A DNA stretch of 39,611 nt from ANME-2 cluster archaeon (GCA_019429385.1 JAHYIS010000026.1:1-39611), one strand, 5' to 3'. Counted from the first letter of the stretch, positions 3,007-37,889 are shown. Program-made: numbers and translations. The notes: generated by a model from the letters alone, not told the origin.

Positions 3007-5772
3007 TTATAATATTTTATCAATGTTCGATTTTAGTAGTTCATATCTTGAATCCCATGTATTATTTTCTGCAAATTGTATCCGTTTTTTTTCCATAACG
3101 GAATCATTTTCTTGCAATGCAATGTCGATTTTTGTCATGAAATCTTCCTTATCTTTTGCAATATAGCATAAATCACTATAGGGTAACAATTCAGGTAATT
3201 CTGTTGACACTACTGGTTTTCCCGTACTTAAATATTCATAAAACTTAACAGGATGCGTTGCTTCAATAAGCGGATTCAATTTAAAAGGAATTATACAAAC
3301 ATCAAACCAATACAAATATTGTGTAAGGTCTGTATAGGGTTTTTCACCTAGAAAATGGACATTTGAAAGTCTATTTAATATGTTATTATCCGAACCAAAA
3401 GTTCGCCCAATAAGTACAAAATTCCAATCGTTTCTTTTCTGTGCAATATATTCAATTATTTCATTATCAAACCATTCTGCAATTGCCCCGTAATAGCCTA
3501 TTATGGGTTTTTTCATATCCTGTAATAGATTGTTAGGTATCAATTTTGAAAAATACTGAAAATCACCGGCATTAGGAACTAAAATCGTTTTTTCATTTCT
3601 ATATTTTTTAGATTTTTTATTGAGATGCATTGAAGAAACAACCAATAAATCGCTTTCAGCAAATAATTTTTCTTCTTCTTTAACCCTATTCCTATTGATA
3701 TTTGAAAATCCTGTGTGTTCATCCATACAATCATAGACTATTTTCCATCCATAGAGTTCTTTTAATCTTAATGCTAAAGGAGTCCACGATGGAAAGGCGA
3801 TGAGACTCATGGCTTTTATCTCGAAAGTATGTATTACCATATTTATTGAATCAATAAGGCTTTCTAATTGTCTGTCACTCAGGACATCATTGTAAATATT
3901 AAAATTTGATGAAATATCTAACCGTAGTTCAAATATATGGTCGGCAATTTTTCTGACTTTAAAGATTTCATCCAATGGCACTGATTCTATAGTCAGATAA
4001 AAAACCCTATGGCCATCATTTGCAAATTTCAATAAAAGCTGTTGTGGTCTTTGAAATCGAAAATCCCAATTGATAATAGGAAAACAGAATATATCTATTT
4101 TATTTTCAAGTCTTGGAGGAATATTAATAAATTTATAGTTATCTGAAGTTGATTCTTGTTCAGAAGGATGGTCGGGATGGTTACCACCAATCTTTCTAAT
4201 CGCGAGCAGTAACGACATATACACTTTCCACCTTCTGGATCCCGGAAGTAAGAGCCTCTCAATAACGCCATTAAATTTCATCACCATACGCCATGTTATT
4301 GATTGATAAATCGATTGGAGGGTCTTTTGGAGTTCAATGTTGTTGGATTGTAGCGTTGCTATTTCTGCATCTTTAGTATTTATTTCAGATACCAAGTTAT
4401 TGAATTTCAAGACTGATTGGTGACTCTCTTCATATCCGATGCTCAGCACATAATGTACGCCATCTTTTAGGTCGATTAGTTTTTGCACCTCTAAAACAGC
4501 GTTAGAAAAATCCCCATCTGTATAATATAACCGCGCCAAGAGATAATGGACTATTAAATTATTCTCTTCCAATAAAATAGCTTTATTATACATTTCAAAT
4601 GCTTTGGAGGCTTCATCTTTCTTATCATATTCCATCCCAAGTTGAATGTATGCTCCGATATGATATGGTTTCTCTGAAATTATATCTTTATATGTATCAA
4701 TAATTTGAGATTCATTGGTTAAAATATGCGCTTGATTTTGTATTTTCGTGAATCTTTTTTCCTCAATTTCTTGTTTAATTACTGAGAAATAGCCCAATAA
4801 ATCTTGTTTCATTTGTTTAATACTTTCTGAAATTTCTGTTTCAATCTCTTGCTTATTGTGAAGTACCTCTTCAATTTTATCCAATAGAATATCACGCTGA
4901 ATTTCTCCCAAATCCACCGTAAACTTTTCTTGTCCGATTGACTCCATAAATCTTCGAACTTTTGTAAAATAATTAATCCCGATAACAGGTATGCCATTTG
5001 TTGCAGCAAATATCAGAGAATGGAGTCTCATCCCGATAACAATATCCATTTTAGACAAAAGGTATTTTATTTCACCAGGTGACAATTCATTTTGAATATT
5101 TATGTAACAATTATGTTTTAGGCTTGAAATAATCATGTCATGAATTATTGCGTCATCTTCGATGCCTTCATGAGTTGATAACGGAATAAAAACAAATTTT
5201 GCACCAAATGTTTCAAATGCCGAATCTAACGTGTGTGCAATTTCTTTTGCTGCGTCTTCAATGTTTCTCCACCATCTTTGTCGCAGACATATCCCGATAT
5301 GAATCCCTTCACCGATGTTGAATTCCATGGGAATGTCATGTAGTAATACCGCCATGTCGGGTATTAAGTAAATATCTTTTGTTGGTAAAATACGTTCAAA
5401 TTCAAATTTTGAGACATAATCCCTTACACTTACTTTAAGGGAATGCTCTAACAACAGCTTTAAGTTATTTTGCTCATTTGGTCCATAAATGGGGCATGTG
5501 ACACCAACACCTAAAATAAGAATTTTAGCATTTATTTTGTCAAACCATTCAGTATAATTATTAAACGGAGCCGGAGGGCCAAAATTGAATACTCCTCCGC
5601 CTCCGAGAATAATATAATCCATTTCTTGAAATGTCTTCAATATTTCTTCATTTAAGAATTGAATATCAAATATTTTGATTTCATATTCGGAAAAAAAATA
5701 CTCTAACACACATCTGAGAGCTTCATCACCCGCATTCTTCTTTCCGTACCATCCAATTAATGCTATTTTCAT
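3007..5772 (-). CDS. Polysaccharide pyruvyltransferase-TPR-glycosyltransferase fusion
   Basis: A 921-aa multidomain cytoplasmic protein. Residues about 1-330 match the polysaccharide pyruvyl transferase (CsaB-like) family: start GWYGKKNAGDEAL, then YIILGGGGVFNFG, and the conserved MRLHSLIFAATNGIPVIG near residue 255. TPR-like repeats lie at about 365-440 (IQLGMEYDKKDEASKAFEMY, HYLLARLYYTDGDFSNAV). A short coiled coil follows at about 445-480, then a linker (SITWRMVMKFN) of the kind seen in multidomain glycosyltransferases. Residues about 545-921 form a GT-B glycosyltransferase with the N-terminal motif NWDFRFQRPQQLL, also found in the separate gene at 10099-11205. Likely role: adding pyruvate ketal and a sugar to the same surface polymer. 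The pyruvyl and sugar substrates are inferred. Confidence 0.8.
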   Translation of the reverse strand: MKIALIGWYGKKNAGDEALRCVLEYFFSEYEIKIFDIQFLNEEILKTFQEMDYIILGGGGVFNFGPPAPFNNYTEWFDKINAKILILGVGVTCPIYGPNEQNNLKLLLEHSLKVSVRDYVSKFEFERILPTKDIYLIPDMAVLLHDIPMEFNIGEGIHIGICLRQRWWRNIEDAAKEIAHTLDSAFETFGAKFVFIPLSTHEGIEDDAIIHDMIISSLKHNCYINIQNELSPGEIKYLLSKMDIVIGMRLHSLIFAATNGIPVIGINYFTKVRRFMESIGQEKFTVDLGEIQRDILLDKIEEVLHNKQEIETEISESIKQMKQDLLGYFSVIKQEIEEKRFTKIQNQAHILTNESQIIDTYKDIISEKPYHIGAYIQLGMEYDKKDEASKAFEMYNKAILLEENNLIVHYLLARLYYTDGDFSNAVLEVQKLIDLKDGVHYVLSIGYEESHQSVLKFNNLVSEINTKDAEIATLQSNNIELQKTLQSIYQSITWRMVMKFNGVIERLLLPGSRRWKVYMSLLLAIRKIGGNHPDHPSEQESTSDNYKFINIPPRLENKIDIFCFPIINWDFRFQRPQQLLLKFANDGHRVFYLTIESVPLDEIFKVRKIADHIFELRLDISSNFNIYNDVLSDRQLESLIDSINMVIHTFEIKAMSLIAFPSWTPLALRLKELYGWKIVYDCMDEHTGFSNINRNRVKEEEKLFAESDLLVVSSMHLNKKSKKYRNEKTILVPNAGDFQYFSKLIPNNLLQDMKKPIIGYYGAIAEWFDNEIIEYIAQKRNDWNFVLIGRTFGSDNNILNRLSNVHFLGEKPYTDLTQYLYWFDVCIIPFKLNPLIEATHPVKFYEYLSTGKPVVSTELPELLPYSDLCYIAKDKEDFMTKIDIALQENDSVMEKKRIQFAENNTWDSRYELLKSNIDKIL

Positions 5773-5800
5773 TATGATTTCTCTGTAAAATAATGATTGT

Positions 5801-6382
5801 CTAATATACTAATTTTAGATTTATTCTACCTTCATTTTTAAGTTTCAAATAAAATCTTTCATCACGTTTCAATTTTTCATATTCTTCAATATTCCGATAT
5901 TTAAGAATTCTTGCAGGATTACCACCAACAACAGCGCATTTTGGTACATCCTTTGTAACAACAGACCCCATAGCCACCACTGCACCCTCATTGATTGTAA
6001 CACCTGGTACAATTTTGACAAACCCACCTATCCAGGTATGTGAACATATCCGGATTTTTTTTAAAATTACTACCCCATCGTAAGGTATTGATTCTGCATT
6101 TTCATAATTATGGTTGGCAGATATTATTGCAACTTTTGGCCCAATTATCACATAATCGTCTATTATCACACCACCAGTGCCCCAAAATAGAGCTCCCGGA
6201 CCGATATGTACATAGTTACCAATCTCTATTGTATGAGGTTCCATAAAAACACTATCTCCGGTAATCTCAACGTATCTCCCAATACGTTTAAATTTAGTAA
6301 GCATTATTTTGACTTTAATATCTAAATAATTCTTATTGATTTTATCTATAATGCTTATAATGGCAGCATACATTTTCTTCAT
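5801..6382 (-). CDS. Hexapeptide-repeat (LbH) acyltransferase
   Basis: Probable O-acetyltransferase of 193 aa with a left-handed beta-helix. Repeated isoleucine/valine-rich hexapeptides run from about residue 35 to 165 (ITGDSV, IEIGNYVHIGPGA, VIIDDYVIIGP). The catalytic-type SANHNY and the C-terminal GSVVTKDVPKCAVVGGNPA are typical of WbbJ/Maa-like enzymes that take acetyl-CoA. It lies between the pyruvyltransferase fusion (28-bp gap) and the Wzt-like ATPase, which suggests decoration of the same polysaccharide. An in-frame ATG two codons later (6376-adjacent, MYAAI) could be the start instead of 6382. The stop is TAG. Confidence 0.85.
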   Translation of the reverse strand: MKKMYAAIISIIDKINKNYLDIKVKIMLTKFKRIGRYVEITGDSVFMEPHTIEIGNYVHIGPGALFWGTGGVIIDDYVIIGPKVAIISANHNYENAESIPYDGVVILKKIRICSHTWIGGFVKIVPGVTINEGAVVAMGSVVTKDVPKCAVVGGNPARILKYRNIEEYEKLKRDERFYLKLKNEGRINLKLVY

Positions 6383-6432
6383 TTCAGGTCAGGCCTACAT
6401 AAAAAAAAATTGAGTTAATCACTTTTTTCATT

Positions 6433-7566
6433 TCAATCCTCTATTCCGTGTATAACATTTAATTTAATCGAAAATATTCTCATATCACCTAATGAATTCG
6501 CATATTTAGAAATTTGAGCTGGTCTTGCCACAACAGACCATCTATACGTCTTACCTCTTTCCAAGATCAATCTTTCATTATCATGTACTATTCCACTTGT
6601 TGGTATCTCAAATGTATCCGCGTTTTTTGGTAATTTGAAGACATATAATTTACCTTCTTCACTATCTGTGATATCTCTTATCCTTAAATCAATACCATCC
6701 ATAAGCTCTAATGGATTATTTATTTTCCAATTCAAAGCAATCTTTGTATCTTCAATCATTGAAAAAACCGGTGCATTCAAGACAGGCATATTTAATGTTT
6801 GAATCCCCAGGGATTGAATATATTTTGATCCTACCTCCCACACATTACCACTTGTTTTAAGGGTTCCATGTTCCAGTAATATTGCTTTATCGCATATATC
6901 TTGAATAGTGCTGAGAGAATGAGATACAAGAACGATTGTGACACCAGATTTCCTAAATTCATGCATTTTTTCCTTGCACTTCATCTGGAACTTCTCATCC
7001 CCTACAGCCAGTACCTCATCCAGTAGCAGGATGTCTGGCTCTGTGGCCACCGCAGTTGCAAAAGCAAGGCGCGCATACATTCCAGAAGAAAAGTTTTTAA
7101 TTTTCACGTTTTCGAATTTTTCGAGTTCTGAAAATTCAAGAATCTCATCATATTTTTCATCCATTTCTTTTTTTGTCATACCGAGGATGCTTCCGTAAAG
7201 ATATACGTTCTCTTTTGCTGAAAGTTCACTCTGGAAGCCTACTCCCAGTTCCAGGAAAGGTGCAACCTTTCCATTTATGGTAACATTTCCTACATCAGGG
7301 GAGAGAACCCCTGCTAATATCTTCAATAAGGTGCTTTTTCCAGAACCGTTCTCACCTATGATGCCTATGGATTCTCCCTGTTTAATAGTAAAGCTTATGT
7401 TCTGAAGCGCCTGGAACTCATCGTAACCACGCTTTCCCTTAATAGAACCAATGATGTTCTCCTTTACCGTTGACTTCTTCTCATGGGGGATGCGGAATCG
7501 TTTTGAGATATTCTGGACTATGACAGCCTGTTCTTCTCGTTGTTTGGTTTTTTGATGTTGGGACAT
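6433..7566 (-). CDS. Wzt/TagH-like polysaccharide ABC exporter ATPase
   Basis: ATP-binding subunit of an ABC-2 polysaccharide exporter. It has Walker A GENGSGKST, signature FSSGMYARLAFA and Walker B ILLLDEVLAVGD, and opens with VQNISKRFRIP, a start typical of Wzt/TagH ATPases. A C-terminal extension of about 130 residues after the nucleotide-binding domain matches the position of the Wzt C-terminal domain, which in O-antigen systems recognises the finished polymer. The ATG at 7566 (MSQHQKTKQ) is preferred; the frame extends 18 codons upstream to a TTG at 7620, with no ribosome site for either. Its membrane partner is probably the permease at 11202-11960, unusually separated from it by three genes. 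Confidence 0.88.
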   Translation of the reverse strand: MSQHQKTKQREEQAVIVQNISKRFRIPHEKKSTVKENIIGSIKGKRGYDEFQALQNISFTIKQGESIGIIGENGSGKSTLLKILAGVLSPDVGNVTINGKVAPFLELGVGFQSELSAKENVYLYGSILGMTKKEMDEKYDEILEFSELEKFENVKIKNFSSGMYARLAFATAVATEPDILLLDEVLAVGDEKFQMKCKEKMHEFRKSGVTIVLVSHSLSTIQDICDKAILLEHGTLKTSGNVWEVGSKYIQSLGIQTLNMPVLNAPVFSMIEDTKIALNWKINNPLELMDGIDLRIRDITDSEEGKLYVFKLPKNADTFEIPTSGIVHDNERLILERGKTYRWSVVARPAQISKYANSLGDMRIFSIKLNVIHGIED

Positions 7567-7745
7567 ATTTGAGCGAAAAAACAATAAACCGATACGGTCT
7601 GGATTAACTCCAAAAATCAAATATTGGATGTGTTAATTTCAGTTCATTGTTGATTTTGAATTAATTATTGTTGTTAGTGCTATACTATAACATTTGTTCT
7701 TTAATTTTCGGAAATTTCGGTAATTGATTTTAGATAGAGATTTTT

Positions 7746-7931
7746 TCAACGCATCCATAAATCAAGGAATTCTCTCCTTTCGAAATCAGAGTTATTTGTT
7801 TTCATTTTTTCAATATACTGGAGCTTGATAGATGAGATATGAATTGCATCATAAGATAATAAATTATATTTTTGATAAATCGACGTGCATGAATAAGTAT
7901 CCCTAAGTTGGGCCAAATAATCCTTTATATG
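7746..7931 (-). other. Coding-like in-frame extension beyond the methyltransferase stop; rest of 7567-7931 without a clear feature
   Basis: The longest spacer of the island (about 365 bp) lies here. Directly after the TGA of the methyltransferase (7932-7934) the same frame stays open for 61 codons to a TGA at 7746-7748. The translation is protein-like (starts HIKDYLAQLRDTYSC, ends DFERREFLDLWMR) and has no ATG of its own. It could be a C-terminal domain cut off by a nonsense mutation, the remnant of a former gene, or chance. I see nothing definable in 7567-7745. Confidence 0.35.
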
Positions 7932-8759
7932 TCAGTTAGGTTTTTGGAGGGTGACAATATCTTGACCTGTAATTCTAGGATTATAATCTAATATCTCGAA
8001 AAATTGTGCATAATTTTCAAGAACATATTTTTCGTTGTGATATGCCGTTTGGTACCATTCAGGAAATATTCCATTAAATGTATTGTCAGTAATAAAAACA
8101 AATCCTTCATTTTCCATCTTTGCAACATTATTGATATCAAGATTCTTCTCCCAGTAATATCTACCATGAAGAGTTAATATCAAGATACCACCAGGTTTGA
8201 TAATCCGATCAAGCTCTCTCAGCCAATGAAATTGATTGTCCTCGTTAAGGTGGGTAAAAACTGAAATCGCATAAATAAGATCAAAGAAATCAGAAGGATA
8301 TTCTAAAGGTGGCAATGCCTTATTAACATTAAACGTAGCAAAATCGAGATTATTCTTGCACCAAGAGATTGCATCAGAGTCAATATCCGTTCCATAGAAA
8401 TGTGTTGATTTCGATTTATCTTCAAACCACATTAATGTACGCCCACACCCACAGCCAAAATCTAAAACGTGTTGATATGAATCCACGCTTCGATTGATTT
8501 TTGAAAGTGTAGTTTCGATATCTTGGCTGCATATTTTGCCAAAAAGGAAAAAAGTATCAACATCAGGTGAACCATGGACCCGGTATCTTAAAGATGCCGA
8601 AGGTAAACGATTTAAACCATTATGTTCTATGTAGCGATGGTCATGTAAACCGACATACCAAACATACATTTTAATGTATTTTCGGTGGAAGAATTGTATA
8701 ATATAAATAGCCTTTTTAGGCAAATAGGGTTTAATTTTTTTCCAAATCTCTATGAACAT
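7932..8759 (-). CDS. Class I SAM-dependent methyltransferase
   Basis: Rossmann-fold methyltransferase of about 275 aa. Motif I is VLDFGCGCGRTL, followed by FYGTDIDSDAISWC (acidic residue binding the SAM ribose), FDLIYAISVFTHL and LDRIIKPGGILILTLHG. The C-terminus ITGQDIVTLQKP is the usual end of this methyltransferase group. It probably O-methylates a sugar or polymer end of the surface glycan, inferred from its position between the Wzt-like ATPase and wecB. The chosen ATG at 8759 has an AGGA upstream; a GTG at 8834 would add 25 hydrophobic residues after an in-frame TAG. Confidence 0.82.
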   Translation of the reverse strand: MFIEIWKKIKPYLPKKAIYIIQFFHRKYIKMYVWYVGLHDHRYIEHNGLNRLPSASLRYRVHGSPDVDTFFLFGKICSQDIETTLSKINRSVDSYQHVLDFGCGCGRTLMWFEDKSKSTHFYGTDIDSDAISWCKNNLDFATFNVNKALPPLEYPSDFFDLIYAISVFTHLNEDNQFHWLRELDRIIKPGGILILTLHGRYYWEKNLDINNVAKMENEGFVFITDNTFNGIFPEWYQTAYHNEKYVLENYAQFFEILDYNPRITGQDIVTLQKPN

Positions 8760-8977
8760 GTTAATTTTTCCTATTATATACATTGACTTACATATAATCC
8801 AAGGGAATAGATGAGTAATAAGATTTCCTATCACCTATTGTGGAATAATTATTGTTGGTATTGATTCTTCTTTTGGAAGGAAGTCTATAATATAATTATT
8901 CATTTATATTTTTCGATATTAAATGGTAACCAGACAAAAATATGCCATGTCAGTCAATTCAAATTAGATATTTGAAA

Positions 8978-10102
8978 TCATTTAATTGCCTTAACTTCAC
9001 CGTGGTGTAATTTTTTGCTTTTCATAATAATATTCAATATTCTATCACTGCTATTCCCGTCCCCGAATGGATTTTTCCAAGAAGTTCTTTTGACCATCAT
9101 CTCATTCGCTGCCTTTGCAATGCTCAATGGTTCAATTCCTGCAAGCAAATTCGCACCAGTTTCGATCGTTTCAGGACGTTCTGTGTTATCCCTTAAAGTT
9201 ATACAGGGTACACCTAAGATACATGCTTCTTCCTGGATACCGCCTGAATCCGTCGCTATGAGTTTGGCATTCTTTTCTAATTGTAAAAATTCTAGATAAC
9301 CAAATGGTTCGCACATAATAAGATTATTAATCTTGTTGAGTTCATCCTGAAGATGTAACATGCCGATCATTTTTTTTGTTCTTGGATGAATTGGGTAAAC
9401 AATAGTAACTTTATTCCGAGAGGATATTTCAGCGAGACCCTGAAGAATTCCTTGAAATCTATCTTTTTTGTCTACATTTTCCTGTCTATGGATGGTTACA
9501 AGAATATAGTCTTTCTTAGCAAGGTCAAGGATATTCATAACATCCATTTTTCGATTAGACAGTTCAAGATTCTTGTAAACTGCATCTACAACCGTATTTC
9601 CTGTCACAAAAATTTTTTCGTCCGGAATCCCTTCTTTCAATAGATTTTTTTTGCTCCCTTCGGTAGGTGCAAAAAGGTAATCCGAAATATGATCTGCAAT
9701 GATTCGATTAATTTCTTCAGGCATCGACCTATCAAAACTTCGAAGTCCAGCTTCAACATGACCTACCTTGATTCCCAATTTTACTGAAGCCAGGGCGCCT
9801 GCCATAACAGTATTTGTATCACCCTGAACAAGGACGATATCAGGCATTTCTTTTTGAAGGACCGCTTCAATTCCTTCCAGCATCTTTCCTGTCTGCGTAC
9901 CATGAGTCCCTGAACCGACATCCAGGTTGAATTCTGGTTGCGGGAGTTCCAGTTCTTCGAAAAATATCCTATCCATCTCATAGGAATAATGCTGTCCAGT
10001 GTGAATTTGGAAAAAATCCTCATTACGTTTTTGAAGTTCCGTAATTATAGGAGCCATTTTAATAATTTCAGGGCGGGTTCCTAGAATTATAGCTAATCTC
10101 AT
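8978..10102 (-). CDS. wecB: UDP-N-acetylglucosamine 2-epimerase (non-hydrolysing)
   Basis: Interconverts UDP-GlcNAc and UDP-ManNAc, supplying ManNAc units for surface polysaccharide. The 374 aa match the usual length. Diagnostic motifs: GTRPEIIKMAPI at the N-terminus, LVQGDTNTVMAGALAS, HVEAGLRSFDRSMPEEINR and DSGGIQEEA near residue 290. The start overlaps the stop of the upstream glycosyltransferase by 4 nt (ATGA), and a GGGGA element lies just before the ATG. No UDP-ManNAc dehydrogenase (wecC) is present in the window, so ManNAc itself may be the incorporated sugar. Confidence 0.95.
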   Translation of the reverse strand: MRLAIILGTRPEIIKMAPIITELQKRNEDFFQIHTGQHYSYEMDRIFFEELELPQPEFNLDVGSGTHGTQTGKMLEGIEAVLQKEMPDIVLVQGDTNTVMAGALASVKLGIKVGHVEAGLRSFDRSMPEEINRIIADHISDYLFAPTEGSKKNLLKEGIPDEKIFVTGNTVVDAVYKNLELSNRKMDVMNILDLAKKDYILVTIHRQENVDKKDRFQGILQGLAEISSRNKVTIVYPIHPRTKKMIGMLHLQDELNKINNLIMCEPFGYLEFLQLEKNAKLIATDSGGIQEEACILGVPCITLRDNTERPETIETGANLLAGIEPLSIAKAANEMMVKRTSWKNPFGDGNSSDRILNIIMKSKKLHHGEVKAIK

Positions 10103-28667: not shown

Positions 28668-30104
28668 TCAGGAAAGACCTTTCCAGCAATGAGGGTCCTG
28701 AGCGAGCAGATTTCCAGATAATGCATATGCAGCAGCTCGACAACCGCCCTGACAATAGTGTGGAATATATTCACAATTACTACATTTTCCTTCCAGCCTG
28801 TTATTGTCCAAATTTCGAAAAATATCTAAAATGTCCGAATGATACCAGATATCCTGCAAACGTGTTTTACGAATATTACCGGCAATCAGGTCAATGAAAA
28901 ACGGACATGGCAATACATCACCTGTGGGAGTTATTACCAGATGTGATGTACCCGCAGAACAACCAACCTGGGAAGCAGATGAGATGGTATTTCGTCGATA
29001 TCCAAAACAGGGTTCATTTAACCAGGGAAATATACCATCTATCTGTAAATCAATATTTTTATCATAGTTATTTTTTATTTGCATTATTCGGTTTGCAATA
29101 TCTTTAATCTCAAGTGGTGTTATTGCCAGATCCTTATTGTTCTGTTTTCCTTTTCCAACTGGTACAAAAGGTGATGCTTTAAAGGAAGAGGCACCGCACT
29201 CAAGTGCCAATCCAATAAGCTGTTCGATTTCATTGATATTGTATTTTGTGATAGCAGTGCTCATAATTGTCCAGTAGCCAGCAGCGGAAAATGATTTCAA
29301 GGCTGAAACCGCTTTTACAAAAGAATTATTGCTTCCTCGAAAAGCATTATGCGTCTGCTCAAGACCGTCAACACTTACCTGTACAGAGAATACATTCGTC
29401 TCTTTGAGCCTGTCAAGAAGAGTATCATCTACAAGAATCCCATTCGTTGATACCTTGATGCCAAAATTGTATCTTGAAGCATAGTCCACAATATCTAAAA
29501 AATCATCCCTTATAAGTGGTTCTCCACCGCCAAACGTGATATTGAATACCTTCAATTCTGCCAATTCATCGATGATTTTTTTTACCTCTTCCAGGGACAT
29601 TTCATTCTGTTCCTGCTTCCCTGCGTTGACAAGGCAGTGTTTGCAGCTTAAATTACATTCATTCGTTAGCTCCCATAACACTGATAGAGGTGCACTGAGA
29701 ATATTTTTTTCAGGTATGTGGTTCAGGATGGCTGAACTATTCGATGAGGAAAGAGAATAATTTGAACTAACAGGAAATTCCTTTATTGAACCTTTTTCTG
29801 TTTTTAAATGAATCGCACGACTCCTTTCAAAAATCGTACATGCTTCTATAACGTACTGTTGTGCCAGGTTGTTTGGAAGAGAGAATTCCTGTAAGATTAT
29901 ATCTTTGATCTCATTTATTGAAAAATATCCATTACAGTGTTCCAGGATGCGCAACTCAATATTATTTATGGGGATTTCTTTAAAAAGATACGGATTAAAT
30001 AAAAAACCGCCTACTCGCTCTTTTCTAAATACGATAAAAGAATACAGGACAGGGATTGCTTCCCCATCCTTGTCATCGTAATTTACCGGGAAGGTACTTC
30101 CCAT
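28668..30104 (-). CDS. PqqD-like/radical SAM/SPASM peptide-maturase-like enzyme
   Basis: 478-aa enzyme in three parts. Residues about 15-105 resemble a PqqD-type peptide recognition domain (VGGFLFNPYLFKEIP, ELRILEHCNGYFSINEIKD). The radical SAM core has CNLSCKHC at 150-157 and NITFGGGEPLIRDDFLDIV. The SPASM region near the C-terminus has GCSAGTSHLVITPTGDVLPC and CSNCEYIPHYCQGGCRAAAY for two auxiliary Fe-S clusters. Such enzymes usually modify ribosomally made peptides, for instance with thioether or C-C links. It lies 3 nt after the Cys-repeat peptidase, in the same frame, with GGAG 9 nt before its ATG. The substrate is probably the tail of that neighbour (inference). Confidence 0.85.
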   Translation of the reverse strand: MGSTFPVNYDDKDGEAIPVLYSFIVFRKERVGGFLFNPYLFKEIPINNIELRILEHCNGYFSINEIKDIILQEFSLPNNLAQQYVIEACTIFERSRAIHLKTEKGSIKEFPVSSNYSLSSSNSSAILNHIPEKNILSAPLSVLWELTNECNLSCKHCLVNAGKQEQNEMSLEEVKKIIDELAELKVFNITFGGGEPLIRDDFLDIVDYASRYNFGIKVSTNGILVDDTLLDRLKETNVFSVQVSVDGLEQTHNAFRGSNNSFVKAVSALKSFSAAGYWTIMSTAITKYNINEIEQLIGLALECGASSFKASPFVPVGKGKQNNKDLAITPLEIKDIANRIMQIKNNYDKNIDLQIDGIFPWLNEPCFGYRRNTISSASQVGCSAGTSHLVITPTGDVLPCPFFIDLIAGNIRKTRLQDIWYHSDILDIFRNLDNNRLEGKCSNCEYIPHYCQGGCRAAAYALSGNLLAQDPHCWKGLS

Positions 30105-30107
30105 GCC

Positions 30108-31061
30108 CTATTTCTCCAATCGGATTTTTCTCTCCAGCTGTGTTAAAGGTTTTGTGTATGGTAGCTCCTGCCATTCCAATTCATTATCTAACACGGGACC
30201 TGCCGAACATCTATCCAAAATATTCGGGCCGGCATTACATGCTAATAACGGAAGGCTTCTACAGAGAACCATCGAATCCGGAAGACCTGTCCTGCAATGC
30301 AATGTCATATCCGGAAGACCTGTCCTGCAATGCAATGTCATATCAGGAAGACCTGTCCTGCAATGAAGCACAGCAGGACATGCAGTAGCATCTCCCGAAC
30401 CCAGCATTACAAAACAATCTCTGTCATGCAAAGCCCAATTTGCAGCAAACACGTCTCCACTCGCTATCAGGTTATTGTAAAGGTCAGTATACGCCGCGAT
30501 ACCTGCATCATATGCCTGAGATACGCTCTTGCATTCAAGCAGGGCATAGTTTGCAGCATTTGAAGCTTCTCCAAATTCATCTTGATGATCAATCACAAAA
30601 ACGTGATTCTCATCATAACCCAGATAGCTGATAGCACCGTTGGTTATTGCCAGCGGACCAAGTCCGGATGCTGATTGACATGAAACTGTGCTGGCAATAC
30701 GGTTTGATAAAATCCCCACGTTCGCACTGTCAATTGCAGGTTCGAGAATGTCTGCTTCCTGGCCCCATAAGGTAAACGAACTGCCATGATCATAATGAAT
30801 GACCAGATTTGGTTTGATCTCGTTTATCTTACTTTCAACATTTTCACGTGTGGCATTATTTATAGCCAGGTCTGTTACCTGCCAGCCAAGGTTTAATGCT
30901 CTTTGTTTTACATTTCCTGCCCATATGTAAGAACCCAATTCGGTGTAAGCATCGTTTGGCTTTTTTGGACGTATCAACAGAAGCTTCTTTGTACCAACGA
31001 ATGGAAACAGTTTATGGATTGCGATTTCGCTTATCTTTTCATAAAGCAATTTTTCAGCCAT
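30108..31061 (-). CDS. Caspase/gingipain-like (clan CD) cysteine peptidase with Cys-repeat tail
   Basis: 317-aa protein. The N-terminal domain (1 to about 225) has a clan CD layout: strand LVIHYDHGSSFTLWG with candidate catalytic His92, then STVSCQSASGLGPLAITNGA with candidate Cys128, followed by ISYLGYDE. The C-terminal 91 residues are different: three repeats of an 11-residue unit with core LHCRTGLPD, a degenerate fourth (VLCRSLP), then ACNAGP and RCSAGP, seven cysteines in all. No signal peptide. The ATG at 31061 is set by GAGGAGGGG (31068-31076 on minus) and overlaps the preceding stop by 1 nt (TGATG). Self-processing or acting as substrate of the adjacent radical SAM enzyme is inferred. 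The stop is TAG. Confidence 0.75.
   Translation of the reverse strand: MAEKLLYEKISEIAIHKLFPFVGTKKLLLIRPKKPNDAYTELGSYIWAGNVKQRALNLGWQVTDLAINNATRENVESKINEIKPNLVIHYDHGSSFTLWGQEADILEPAIDSANVGILSNRIASTVSCQSASGLGPLAITNGAISYLGYDENHVFVIDHQDEFGEASNAANYALLECKSVSQAYDAGIAAYTDLYNNLIASGDVFAANWALHDRDCFVMLGSGDATACPAVLHCRTGLPDMTLHCRTGLPDMTLHCRTGLPDSMVLCRSLPLLACNAGPNILDRCSAGPVLDNELEWQELPYTKPLTQLERKIRLEK
30277..30365 (-). repeat. 33-bp tandem repeats encoding LHCRTGLPDMT units
   Basis: Three copies begin at 30277, 30310 and 30343 on the plus strand, exactly 33 bp apart. Each contains GGAAGACCTGTCCTGCAATG; the third differs by one base in its first five and diverges after 30365. They keep the reading frame of the peptidase and add one Cys each. 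The near identity shows recent expansion or active homogenisation. Confidence 0.9.
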
Positions 31062-31753
31062 CACAATCCCCTCCTCTTTTTTGAAAGTTCTAGCCGTCCT
31101 TTGTCAAGCGTCCTGGTGACCATCCTTCCGATATCAGTATCTTTTTTCACTTCTTCCAATAGCTGGTTTGGCGTGTAACTATGAACTCCCATTATCAGGT
31201 ATGGTTCGTCACGCTTTTGTGATGCCATCTTTCCTATCCACTGCTCGACATCATCAAGTATAAGTTTCTTTTTTAAATTTGCCTCCTCAGCATACCGTTT
31301 TTCATACGAGTTATTAATTTCATCTGCATTCTTAGGCATTATATTCTCCATCCTTTTGATTGATCTTTCTGGTATATCTACTACAAATTCTTCAACTTTA
31401 TCAGCCTTATATCTCACCTGATCTTCAGTTGTATGAATTATATTTCCGTCTGGATTTTTGATCCTTAGATAAAGATCTGGCTTTGTGTCAAGATAAGCGT
31501 CCTTAAAATCGACCTCATCGTAAAATATCTCGAATTTTCCATCCTGGTCTGTAATAACAGAACCCAATCGGTCATCACATTTATAATCTTTATCCACGGG
31601 CTCAACAATTAAACCTTGGAGAGGTTCTTTGTTTTCCAAAGTCCTTACTTTCCCGAATATTCTAAATCTTTCATCACGATTTATTTCAGCACCTCCTATA
31701 GCAAAGTAATACTTCACACCGTGCGTTTTGAGATGAAAGAAAGAGTTATTCAC
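31061..31753 (-). CDS. Transthyretin-fold protein, first gene of the peptidase/radical SAM operon
   Basis: 230-aa protein without a clear signal peptide. Residues about 28-128 form a transthyretin/prealbumin-like beta domain (FRIFGKVRTLENKEPLQGL, LGSVITDQDGKFEIFYDE, PDLYLRIKNPDGNIIHT). A charged helical stretch follows at about 130-170. The last 45 residues contain a separate motif (PYLIMGVHSYTPNQLLEEV, then DTDIGRM) that I do not recognise. It heads the three-gene operon with a TATA-like box about 60 bp upstream of its ATG and ends in a TGATG overlap with the peptidase. It may be a partner, carrier or target; function unknown. Confidence 0.65.
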   Translation of the reverse strand: MNNSFFHLKTHGVKYYFAIGGAEINRDERFRIFGKVRTLENKEPLQGLIVEPVDKDYKCDDRLGSVITDQDGKFEIFYDEVDFKDAYLDTKPDLYLRIKNPDGNIIHTTEDQVRYKADKVEEFVVDIPERSIKRMENIMPKNADEINNSYEKRYAEEANLKKKLILDDVEQWIGKMASQKRDEPYLIMGVHSYTPNQLLEEVKKDTDIGRMVTRTLDKGRLELSKKRRGL

Positions 31754-37825: not shown

Positions 37826-37889
37826 GTCATACATATATAAAACCATACGTATCTACAACCATACATATCCAGAACCATACGGATAGTTT
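37826..37889. repeat. Four imperfect 16-bp tandem repeats (iteron-like operator)
   Basis: Units begin at 37826, 37842, 37858 and 37874, exactly 16 bp apart. The consensus begins ACCATAC: GTCATACATATATAAA, ACCATACGTATCTACA, ACCATACATATCCAGA, ACCATACGGATAGTTT. They lie between the promoters of the CARDB operon and pheS, ending 6 bp before the pheS TATA box. A multi-site operator is the simplest reading; the regulator is unknown. Confidence 0.7.

Follow-up and report, generated by a model that had tools for sequence, protein, structure and literature searches.

A stretch of 39,611 nucleotides from an ANME-2 cluster archaeon (GCA_019429385.1 JAHYIS010000026.1:1-39611; the window in the following) carries three minus-strand genes for a transthyretin (TTR)/CnaB-like protein, a clan CD peptidase that ends in Cys-containing repeats, and a radical S-adenosylmethionine (SAM)/SPASM enzyme with a PqqD-like N-terminal segment. 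The trio is real and conserved and, as far as our searches reach, undescribed; we regard it as a variant of radical SAM/SPASM protein modification. The best overall explanation, to which we assign a probability of about 60%, is that the radical SAM/SPASM enzyme modifies the tail of the peptidase and that the arm, once modified, remains part of the clan CD peptidase, itself active. The tail is likely to be the substrate, because a repeat tail is the neighbour that these enzymes share while the proteins that carry it are unrelated. Found in some methane-cycle archaea beside the caspase-like protein and again with other carriers, the pairing of tail and enzyme hints at a so far undescribed means of equipping large proteins with modified tails.

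Cys-repeat tails on unrelated carrier proteins

Homologues of the window enzyme were ranked over 186 genomes of the order, all genomes searched in this work belonging to one phylum. Two orthologues (645 and 615 bits) are followed by enzymes at 189-224 bits, and those among the latter that have a PqqD-like N-terminus directly adjoin a C-x-x-[GAS]-(x)-P tail. Besides the clan CD peptidase, three further types of protein carry such tails. An M4 thermolysin-like peptidase has about 700 amino acids (aa) and 8-10 C[PL]P.P units (14 genomes of one genus). An S8 subtilisin-like peptidase has 632 aa, and about 80 aa follow its CLRGPIQ-type units (2 genomes; the contig of one holds the tail end alone). 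The third is a contractile-injection protein of 1170-1400 aa with CarboxypepD_reg repeats and 4-20 C-x-A-G-x-P units (4 genomes, one copy cut by the contig end). The N-terminus of the last is CIS13-like at 84 bits, below the cut-off of 370; the protein is fibre-like, is not a peptidase, and adjoins eCIS_core and Tail_P2_I genes. No tail lies next to the AhbD-like homologues of about 350 aa, which lack the N-terminal domain, or next to a homologue of 480 aa (L106). At least three motifs are present in 22 of 393 distinct open reading frames (ORFs) of at least 100 aa, and all 22 adjoin such a radical SAM enzyme, a within-sample count over loci that were mostly fetched through the radical SAM gene itself.

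The units take the form C-x-x-G-L-P or C-x-A-G-P in the caspase-like carriers, C-x-A-G-x-P in the contractile-injection carrier, C-P-P-[SA]-P in the M4 carrier and C-L-R-[GA]-P or C-P-P-[AG]-P in the S8 carrier. Common to all are the Cys, a small residue at +3 and a Pro at +4 or +5, with lengths of mostly 7-13 residues; the arrays were first spotted by eye, and the +3 and +4/5 positions are partly built into the search pattern. Judged from these gene neighbourhoods, the pairing is not specific to caspase-like carriers, which goes beyond the account of an initial annotation of the window. Whether a carrier-independent scheme operates in Methanosarcinales, in which PqqD-radical SAM-SPASM enzymes would crosslink C-x-x-[GAS]-(x)-P arms on unrelated full-size proteins (three peptidase classes and a phage-tail-like fibre), we consider evenly balanced.

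Several of these loci have features of their own. At the M4 loci L063-L066 and L113, the carrier lacks an obvious signal peptide, its CPPxP tail precedes a helical-hairpin-like region at the C-terminus, and its gene usually overlaps that of the radical SAM enzyme by 4 nucleotides (nt). Locus L111 (G173, 5506-9150) combines an S8 peptidase with CLRGPIQ repeats and a radical SAM enzyme, and a 105-aa gene beside the latter resembles by eye the N-terminal region of this S8 peptidase, possibly encoding a stand-alone propeptide or inhibitor. The contractile injection clusters L035-L038 (G060, G043, G045, G051) comprise CIS13-like, Tail_P2_I and eCIS_core genes together with the fibre-like protein that bears the Cys repeats and a PqqD-radical SAM enzyme. 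At L043, L049, L050 and L060, PqqD-radical SAM genes follow proteins of about 225 aa that occur in tandem and have a leader-like half and a Pro-rich end (FPGPLDPWLLNVLE); these may form a further precursor family.

The peptidase and its tail

The peptidase finds no match in sequence libraries, and no credible relative in the PDB by sequence. An AlphaFold2 model built from ten aligned relatives has a core with a predicted local distance difference test score (pLDDT) of mostly >80 and includes a C-terminal helix. With this core, Foldseek retrieves caspase-haemoglobinase folds at expectation values (E) from 6e-6 to 9e-4, with SAVED-CHAT nearest (5.9e-6), followed by gingipain R (2.3e-5) and caspases (about 2e-4). 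His93, Gly94 and Cys129 are invariant in the ten aligned relatives, down to 21-28% identity; close relatives share 68-85%. The His-Gly and Cys dyad and the fold are those of clan CD, and they bear out the His/Cys caspase-like identity that had been read from the sequence. Since the three residues are invariant even in distant relatives, the peptidase is probably an active enzyme.

Its end reads CPAVLH-CRTGLPDMTLH-CRTGLPDMTLH-CRTGLPDSMVL-CRSLPLLA-CNAGPNILDR-CSAGPVLD, followed by a charged stretch ending KPLTQLERKIRLEK. The C..G.{0,1}P motif occurs five times, against a mean of 0.06 expected from shuffles of the same protein. This excess and an underlying 33-bp repeat establish the tandem Cys-containing repeats of the initial annotation as real. 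The three CRTGLP units derive from that repeat, whose copies match at 98%, so the tail has expanded recently in the window allele by duplication of the unit. Residues 233-305 are predicted to be disordered (pLDDT <50). The C-terminal helix sits within a conserved KPLxQLxxRxRxEK-like ending after the repeats in all three complete trios described below, and is a possible docking site.

The radical SAM/SPASM enzyme

Pfam assigns Radical_SAM (98 bits) and SPASM (48 bits) to the window enzyme, which contains the CX3CX2C motif, the core and the SPASM domain, and its profile matches the solved SkfB, PqqE and CteB-like chains. For the PqqD-like segment, the earlier call stands through the homologues and not through the protein's own Pfam score. 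Five homologous enzymes score 38.8, 32.9, 31.5, 27.0 and 25.2 bits with PqqD, all above the Pfam cut-off of 23.4, and the orthologue of a GoM-Arc1 Methanosarcinales metagenome-assembled genome (MAG) falls narrowly under it (20.7 bits); the window enzyme itself gives no Pfam PqqD match at E<1, and its segment reaches PqqD in the PDB (3g2b) at E 0.27 only. We thus count it among maturases with a PqqD-like recognition element (RRE) via its homologues. A PqqD-like (RRE) domain points to a peptide substrate.

The enzyme scores with the mycofactocin, AhbD, NirJ2 and GeoRSP models of NCBIfam, below every cut-off. An identity as mycofactocin MftC was rejected (216.2 bits against the TIGR03962 cut-off of 265), as was one as an AhbD/NirJ heme enzyme (212 and 210 bits against an equivalog cut-off of 500); those heme enzymes lack a PqqD domain, and the window enzyme has the PqqD-like N-terminus. 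PADLOC returned only generic cross-hits of viperin models for it. Plasmids contained only generic mycofactocin, NirJ or unnamed radical SAM enzymes, and viral contigs contained no relative of the peptidase or of the radical SAM enzyme.

A separate short leader-core precursor, as is typical of ribosomally synthesized and post-translationally modified peptides (RiPPs), was not found: no conserved small ORF lies beside the three trios, in line with the earlier reading that no other short precursor gene is evident nearby. The only small-ORF matches among the trios either overlap the 3' end of the radical SAM gene or are 9 residues long. The shared small ORF at that 3' end was rejected as a precursor, since it overlaps the radical SAM gene out of frame. 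Homologues of the enzyme beside a different short precursor were not found, the tail-linked ones adjoining large tail-bearing proteins.

Trios in other genomes and an older two-gene core

Among 238 genomes of the class, 5 encode a close relative of the peptidase, counting that of the window. The homologous trios anticipated in other archaea exist: with the window, there are three complete trios from three Methanosarcinales families, the others being in the GoM-Arc1 MAG (L004/L018, G019) and in G076 (L016). In both of these, the peptidase gene is followed by the radical SAM gene, whose product is 59% identical to the window enzyme. The number of tail units varies as had been predicted, with the peptidase domain conserved: five in the window, five in GoM-Arc1 (three CxxGLP and two CxAGP) and seven in G076 (five and two). 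All three tails retain the Cys, the Gly at +3 and the Pro at +4/5, and the linkers diverge.

The first gene of the trio encodes two domains. The Pfam TTR-52 match is weak (19.8 bits, under the cut-off of 24.9). The transthyretin-fold call is nevertheless upheld by the AlphaFold2 model, a prealbumin-like beta-sandwich of moderate confidence (pLDDT about 75 in the domain) with Foldseek matches in the range of ~1e-4 to 1e-3, among them SpaA (CnaB; E 3e-4) and TTR-52 (3uaf; E 6.6e-4). The protein is 51-67% identical across four other loci. Its C-terminal domain, termed partner domain here and missed by the initial annotation, has no counterpart in Pfam, NCBIfam or PADLOC. At the GoM-Arc1 locus (L004), the TTR half of the gene is lost, with transposase-like remnants in its place, and the C-terminal domain stands intact before the peptidase; because only this domain is kept, it is probably the needed part of the protein.

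A profile of the partner domain was run over the 1317 ORFs of 17 loci. Besides the trio members, it mainly matches ORFs directly upstream of distant clan CD peptidases: G198 (57.8 bits, two copies), G071 (21.0, in a receiver-domain protein that terminates with it), G015 (19.5), G016 (19.0) and G395 (16.7), with weak scores in G053 (11.3) and G438 (6.6). None of the seven distant peptidase relatives has the tail motif and no radical SAM enzyme scores in their loci (2.6-17 kb each); a peptidase without the tail that keeps the same radical SAM partner was looked for and not seen in these flanks. Wherever the locus allows a judgement, tail and radical SAM enzyme are either both present (3 of 10 loci) or both absent. 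As the distant peptidases without tails keep the partner domain and have no radical SAM enzyme, peptidase and partner domain form an old core module to which tail and radical SAM enzyme were added. By the same comparison, the partner domain is the conserved partner of the peptidase family independent of the tail.

Three of the distant loci deserve separate description. At L020 (G071:C112, 5922-10921), the genes ahead of a clan CD peptidase encode a receiver-domain protein with the partner domain at its end, a HATPase-containing protein and a DNA cytosine methyltransferase, and they include a Vsr-like gene; the locus is a candidate defence or signalling cassette. Stand-alone partner-domain proteins directly precede the peptidase at L025 (G198:C9; 125 aa, two copies) and L026 (G395:C130; 113 aa, one copy), and a long stretch resembling repeated beta-rich domains extends the L026 peptidase at its C-terminus.

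Proposed mechanism and alternatives

We propose that the PqqD-like domain would dock the radical SAM enzyme on the neighbouring peptidase, with either the conserved helix at the C-terminus or the core of the peptidase as the probable site. The radical SAM and SPASM clusters would then work through the C-x-x-G-(L)-P units in succession and most likely introduce crosslinks, Cys thioethers or others. SPASM enzymes commonly form thioether crosslinks on cores that bear Cys; by this analogy, Cys crosslinking is a first guess with an even chance of being correct. The tail would turn into a chain of small rings, still attached, and the arm would tether, stabilise or gate the peptidase. The peptidase would act as the effector of the older two-gene module, with the TTR-like protein as a putative adaptor gripping it through the partner domain. 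In the peptidase carriers, the repeats have conserved or structured sequence behind them; carriers outside the trios continue with more sequence or with entire domains, and the contractile-injection type is no peptidase. We therefore somewhat favour a permanent arm over a released peptide.

The initial annotation had viewed the peptidase as a self-releasing precursor, whose modified tail would be cut off by its own peptidase to yield a free modified peptide or an activated enzyme. This stays alive because peptidases recur as carriers (three of four types, of the unrelated clan CD cysteine, M4 metallo and S8 serine classes) and because 10 of the 17 caspase-type units have Arg or Lys at +1 after the Cys, a pattern in keeping with a gingipain-like specificity; the trio also lacks a separate leader peptidase. 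Release would, however, need two cuts, since the repeats precede the conserved helix in all complete trios, the helical-hairpin-like region in M4 and the C-terminal stretch in S8. Together with a CIS13-like carrier that is no peptidase and the lack of a transporter conserved in the trio neighbourhoods, this makes self-release possible as the purpose of the tail, yet unlikely. Placement in a defence or signalling system, with a caspase-like effector and an adaptor to which tail and radical SAM enzyme would be regulatory extras, is consistent with the L020 neighbourhood and with a SAVED-CHAT effector as nearest fold match. The window trio, however, lies among housekeeping and transport genes, and PADLOC yields nothing matching the peptidase or the TTR-like protein, apart from the viperin-model cross-hits of the third gene; we hold such a role to be doubtful, and it would be compatible with a modified, permanently attached tail rather than opposed to it.

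Several points weigh against modification of the tail as proposed. Some PqqD-radical SAM enzymes (G202; the G039/G379 group) adjoin proteins without such tails, so that these enzymes as a whole have other substrates. A maximum-likelihood tree, which has long branches, unites the enzymes of contractile-injection, S8 and M4 carriers in a supported clade (98/96) that does not include the caspase-type ones. It leaves monophyly of all tail-linked enzymes unsupported, and the shared tail may hence be convergent. Complete trios number three, and two further loci (G074 and G075) break off at a contig end ahead of the tail, after the TTR-like gene and the first part of the peptidase gene. Finally, the Cys/Pro repeats could instead form a metal-binding, Fe-S-binding or disulfide-linked segment; the radical SAM enzyme would then have another target (the peptidase core, the TTR-like protein or a small molecule), and its adjacency would reflect operon membership only. 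The heme-synthesis and mycofactocin models among the best, sub-cut-off NCBIfam scores speak for this reading. A like tail beside PqqD-radical SAM enzymes on four unrelated carriers, and the peptide substrates generally indicated by RRE domains, argue for the tail as substrate and render this last alternative quite improbable.

Relation to known systems

The RRE-dependent radical SAM/SPASM maturases of RiPPs (CteB/SCIFF, PapB, AlbA, SkfB, PqqE) resemble the window enzyme in the PqqD/RRE-like N-terminus, the core, the SPASM domain and an adjacent Cys-bearing core sequence. They differ in that the candidate substrate here is a C-terminal tail on a protein of 300-1400 aa and not a short leader-core peptide; none of their equivalog cut-offs is reached. 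The CXXX-repeat, ACGX and glycine-rich-repeat (GRRM) systems of TIGRFAM/NCBIfam likewise pair radical SAM/SPASM enzymes with Cys- or Gly-containing repeats and use peptide-sized precursors; the ACGX model gives the window enzyme 155 of 400 bits, far under its cut-off. In the maturation of quinohemoprotein amine dehydrogenase, the radical SAM enzyme QhpD forms thioethers on a protein subunit, with the subtilisin-like protease QhpE in the operon. QhpE acts on a separate subunit, whereas the S8 carrier bears the repeats itself and matches the QhpE model weakly (54 of 165 bits). Gingipain R, caspases and CHAT proteins (SAVED-CHAT, Craspase) share fold and His/Cys dyad with the window peptidase, which adds the Cys-repeat tail and the radical SAM partner. 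TvgB likewise acts on a tandem-repeat core, converting the repeating TVGG motif of TvgA to cyclopropylglycine, but this motif is without Cys, the precursor is short, and accessory oxidase and transporter genes are present (PMC9062424).

Literature searches, which did not extend to subscription papers, turned up no account of peptidases with such tails next to radical SAM enzymes. Radical SAM peptide chemistry is known mainly from short precursors that are later released. If the proposal holds, this chemistry extends to the durable decoration of large proteins, and the occurrence of one kind of tail on several peptidase types is explained. It would also provide defined archaeal pairs for direct tests of the chemistry, some of them, in the M4 group, in closed and possibly cultured genomes.

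Gene layout and surroundings

The order of the three genes, their positions, the overlap and the gap (Table 1) agree with those read initially. The overlap of the TTR-like and peptidase genes is 1 nt with an ATG start (31061) and 4 nt with a GTG start (31064), and 3 nt separate the peptidase gene from the start of the radical SAM gene.

Table 1. Positions of the trio genes and their features in the window
Feature	Position	Strand	Basis
TTR/CnaB-like protein, 230 aa	31061..31753	-	ORF
TTR/CnaB-like beta-sandwich domain, residues ~28-128	31370..31672	-	AlphaFold2, Foldseek
C-terminal partner domain, residues ~143-223, motif PYLxxG-x-x-[YF]TPxQLxxEVxxDTxIGR	31085..31327	-	profile search
Clan CD (caspase/gingipain/CHAT-like) peptidase with Cys-repeat tail, 318 aa	30108..31064	-	ORF, Foldseek, relatives
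Catalytic His93 codon, HYDHG motif	30786..30788	-	invariant in 10-sequence alignment A9
Catalytic Cys129 codon, TVSC motif	30678..30680	-	invariant in alignment A9
Cys-repeat tail: three CRTGLP units, degenerate CRSLP, then CNAGP and CSAGP	30195..30380	-	sequence, AlphaFold2
33-bp direct tandem repeat within tail, 2.7 copies, 98% matches	30276..30365	-	Tandem Repeats Finder
Predicted C-terminal helix after tail, residues 306-317	30114..30149	-	model and alignment of three complete peptidases
PqqD-like/radical SAM/SPASM enzyme, 478 aa	28668..30104	-	ORF, Pfam
PqqD-like (RRE) N-terminal segment, residues ~19-100	29805..30050	-	Pfam PqqD in homologues
Radical SAM core, CNLSCKHC cluster motif, residues 145-299	29208..29672	-	Pfam PF04055, E 7e-28
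SPASM domain, residues 382-445	28770..28961	-	Pfam PF13186, E 1.5e-12

ATP-binding cassette (ABC) genes flank the trio within its housekeeping and transport surroundings. In G009, a congener of the window, the same ABC genes adjoin a radical SAM fragment (L110, G009:C745, about 161-439) that matches only residues 386-478 at 83% identity, contains stops, and looks like decay of the locus. Elsewhere in the window, a 16-bp tandem repeat (CATACATATCTAAAAC) of 3.3 copies is found at 37828-37880.

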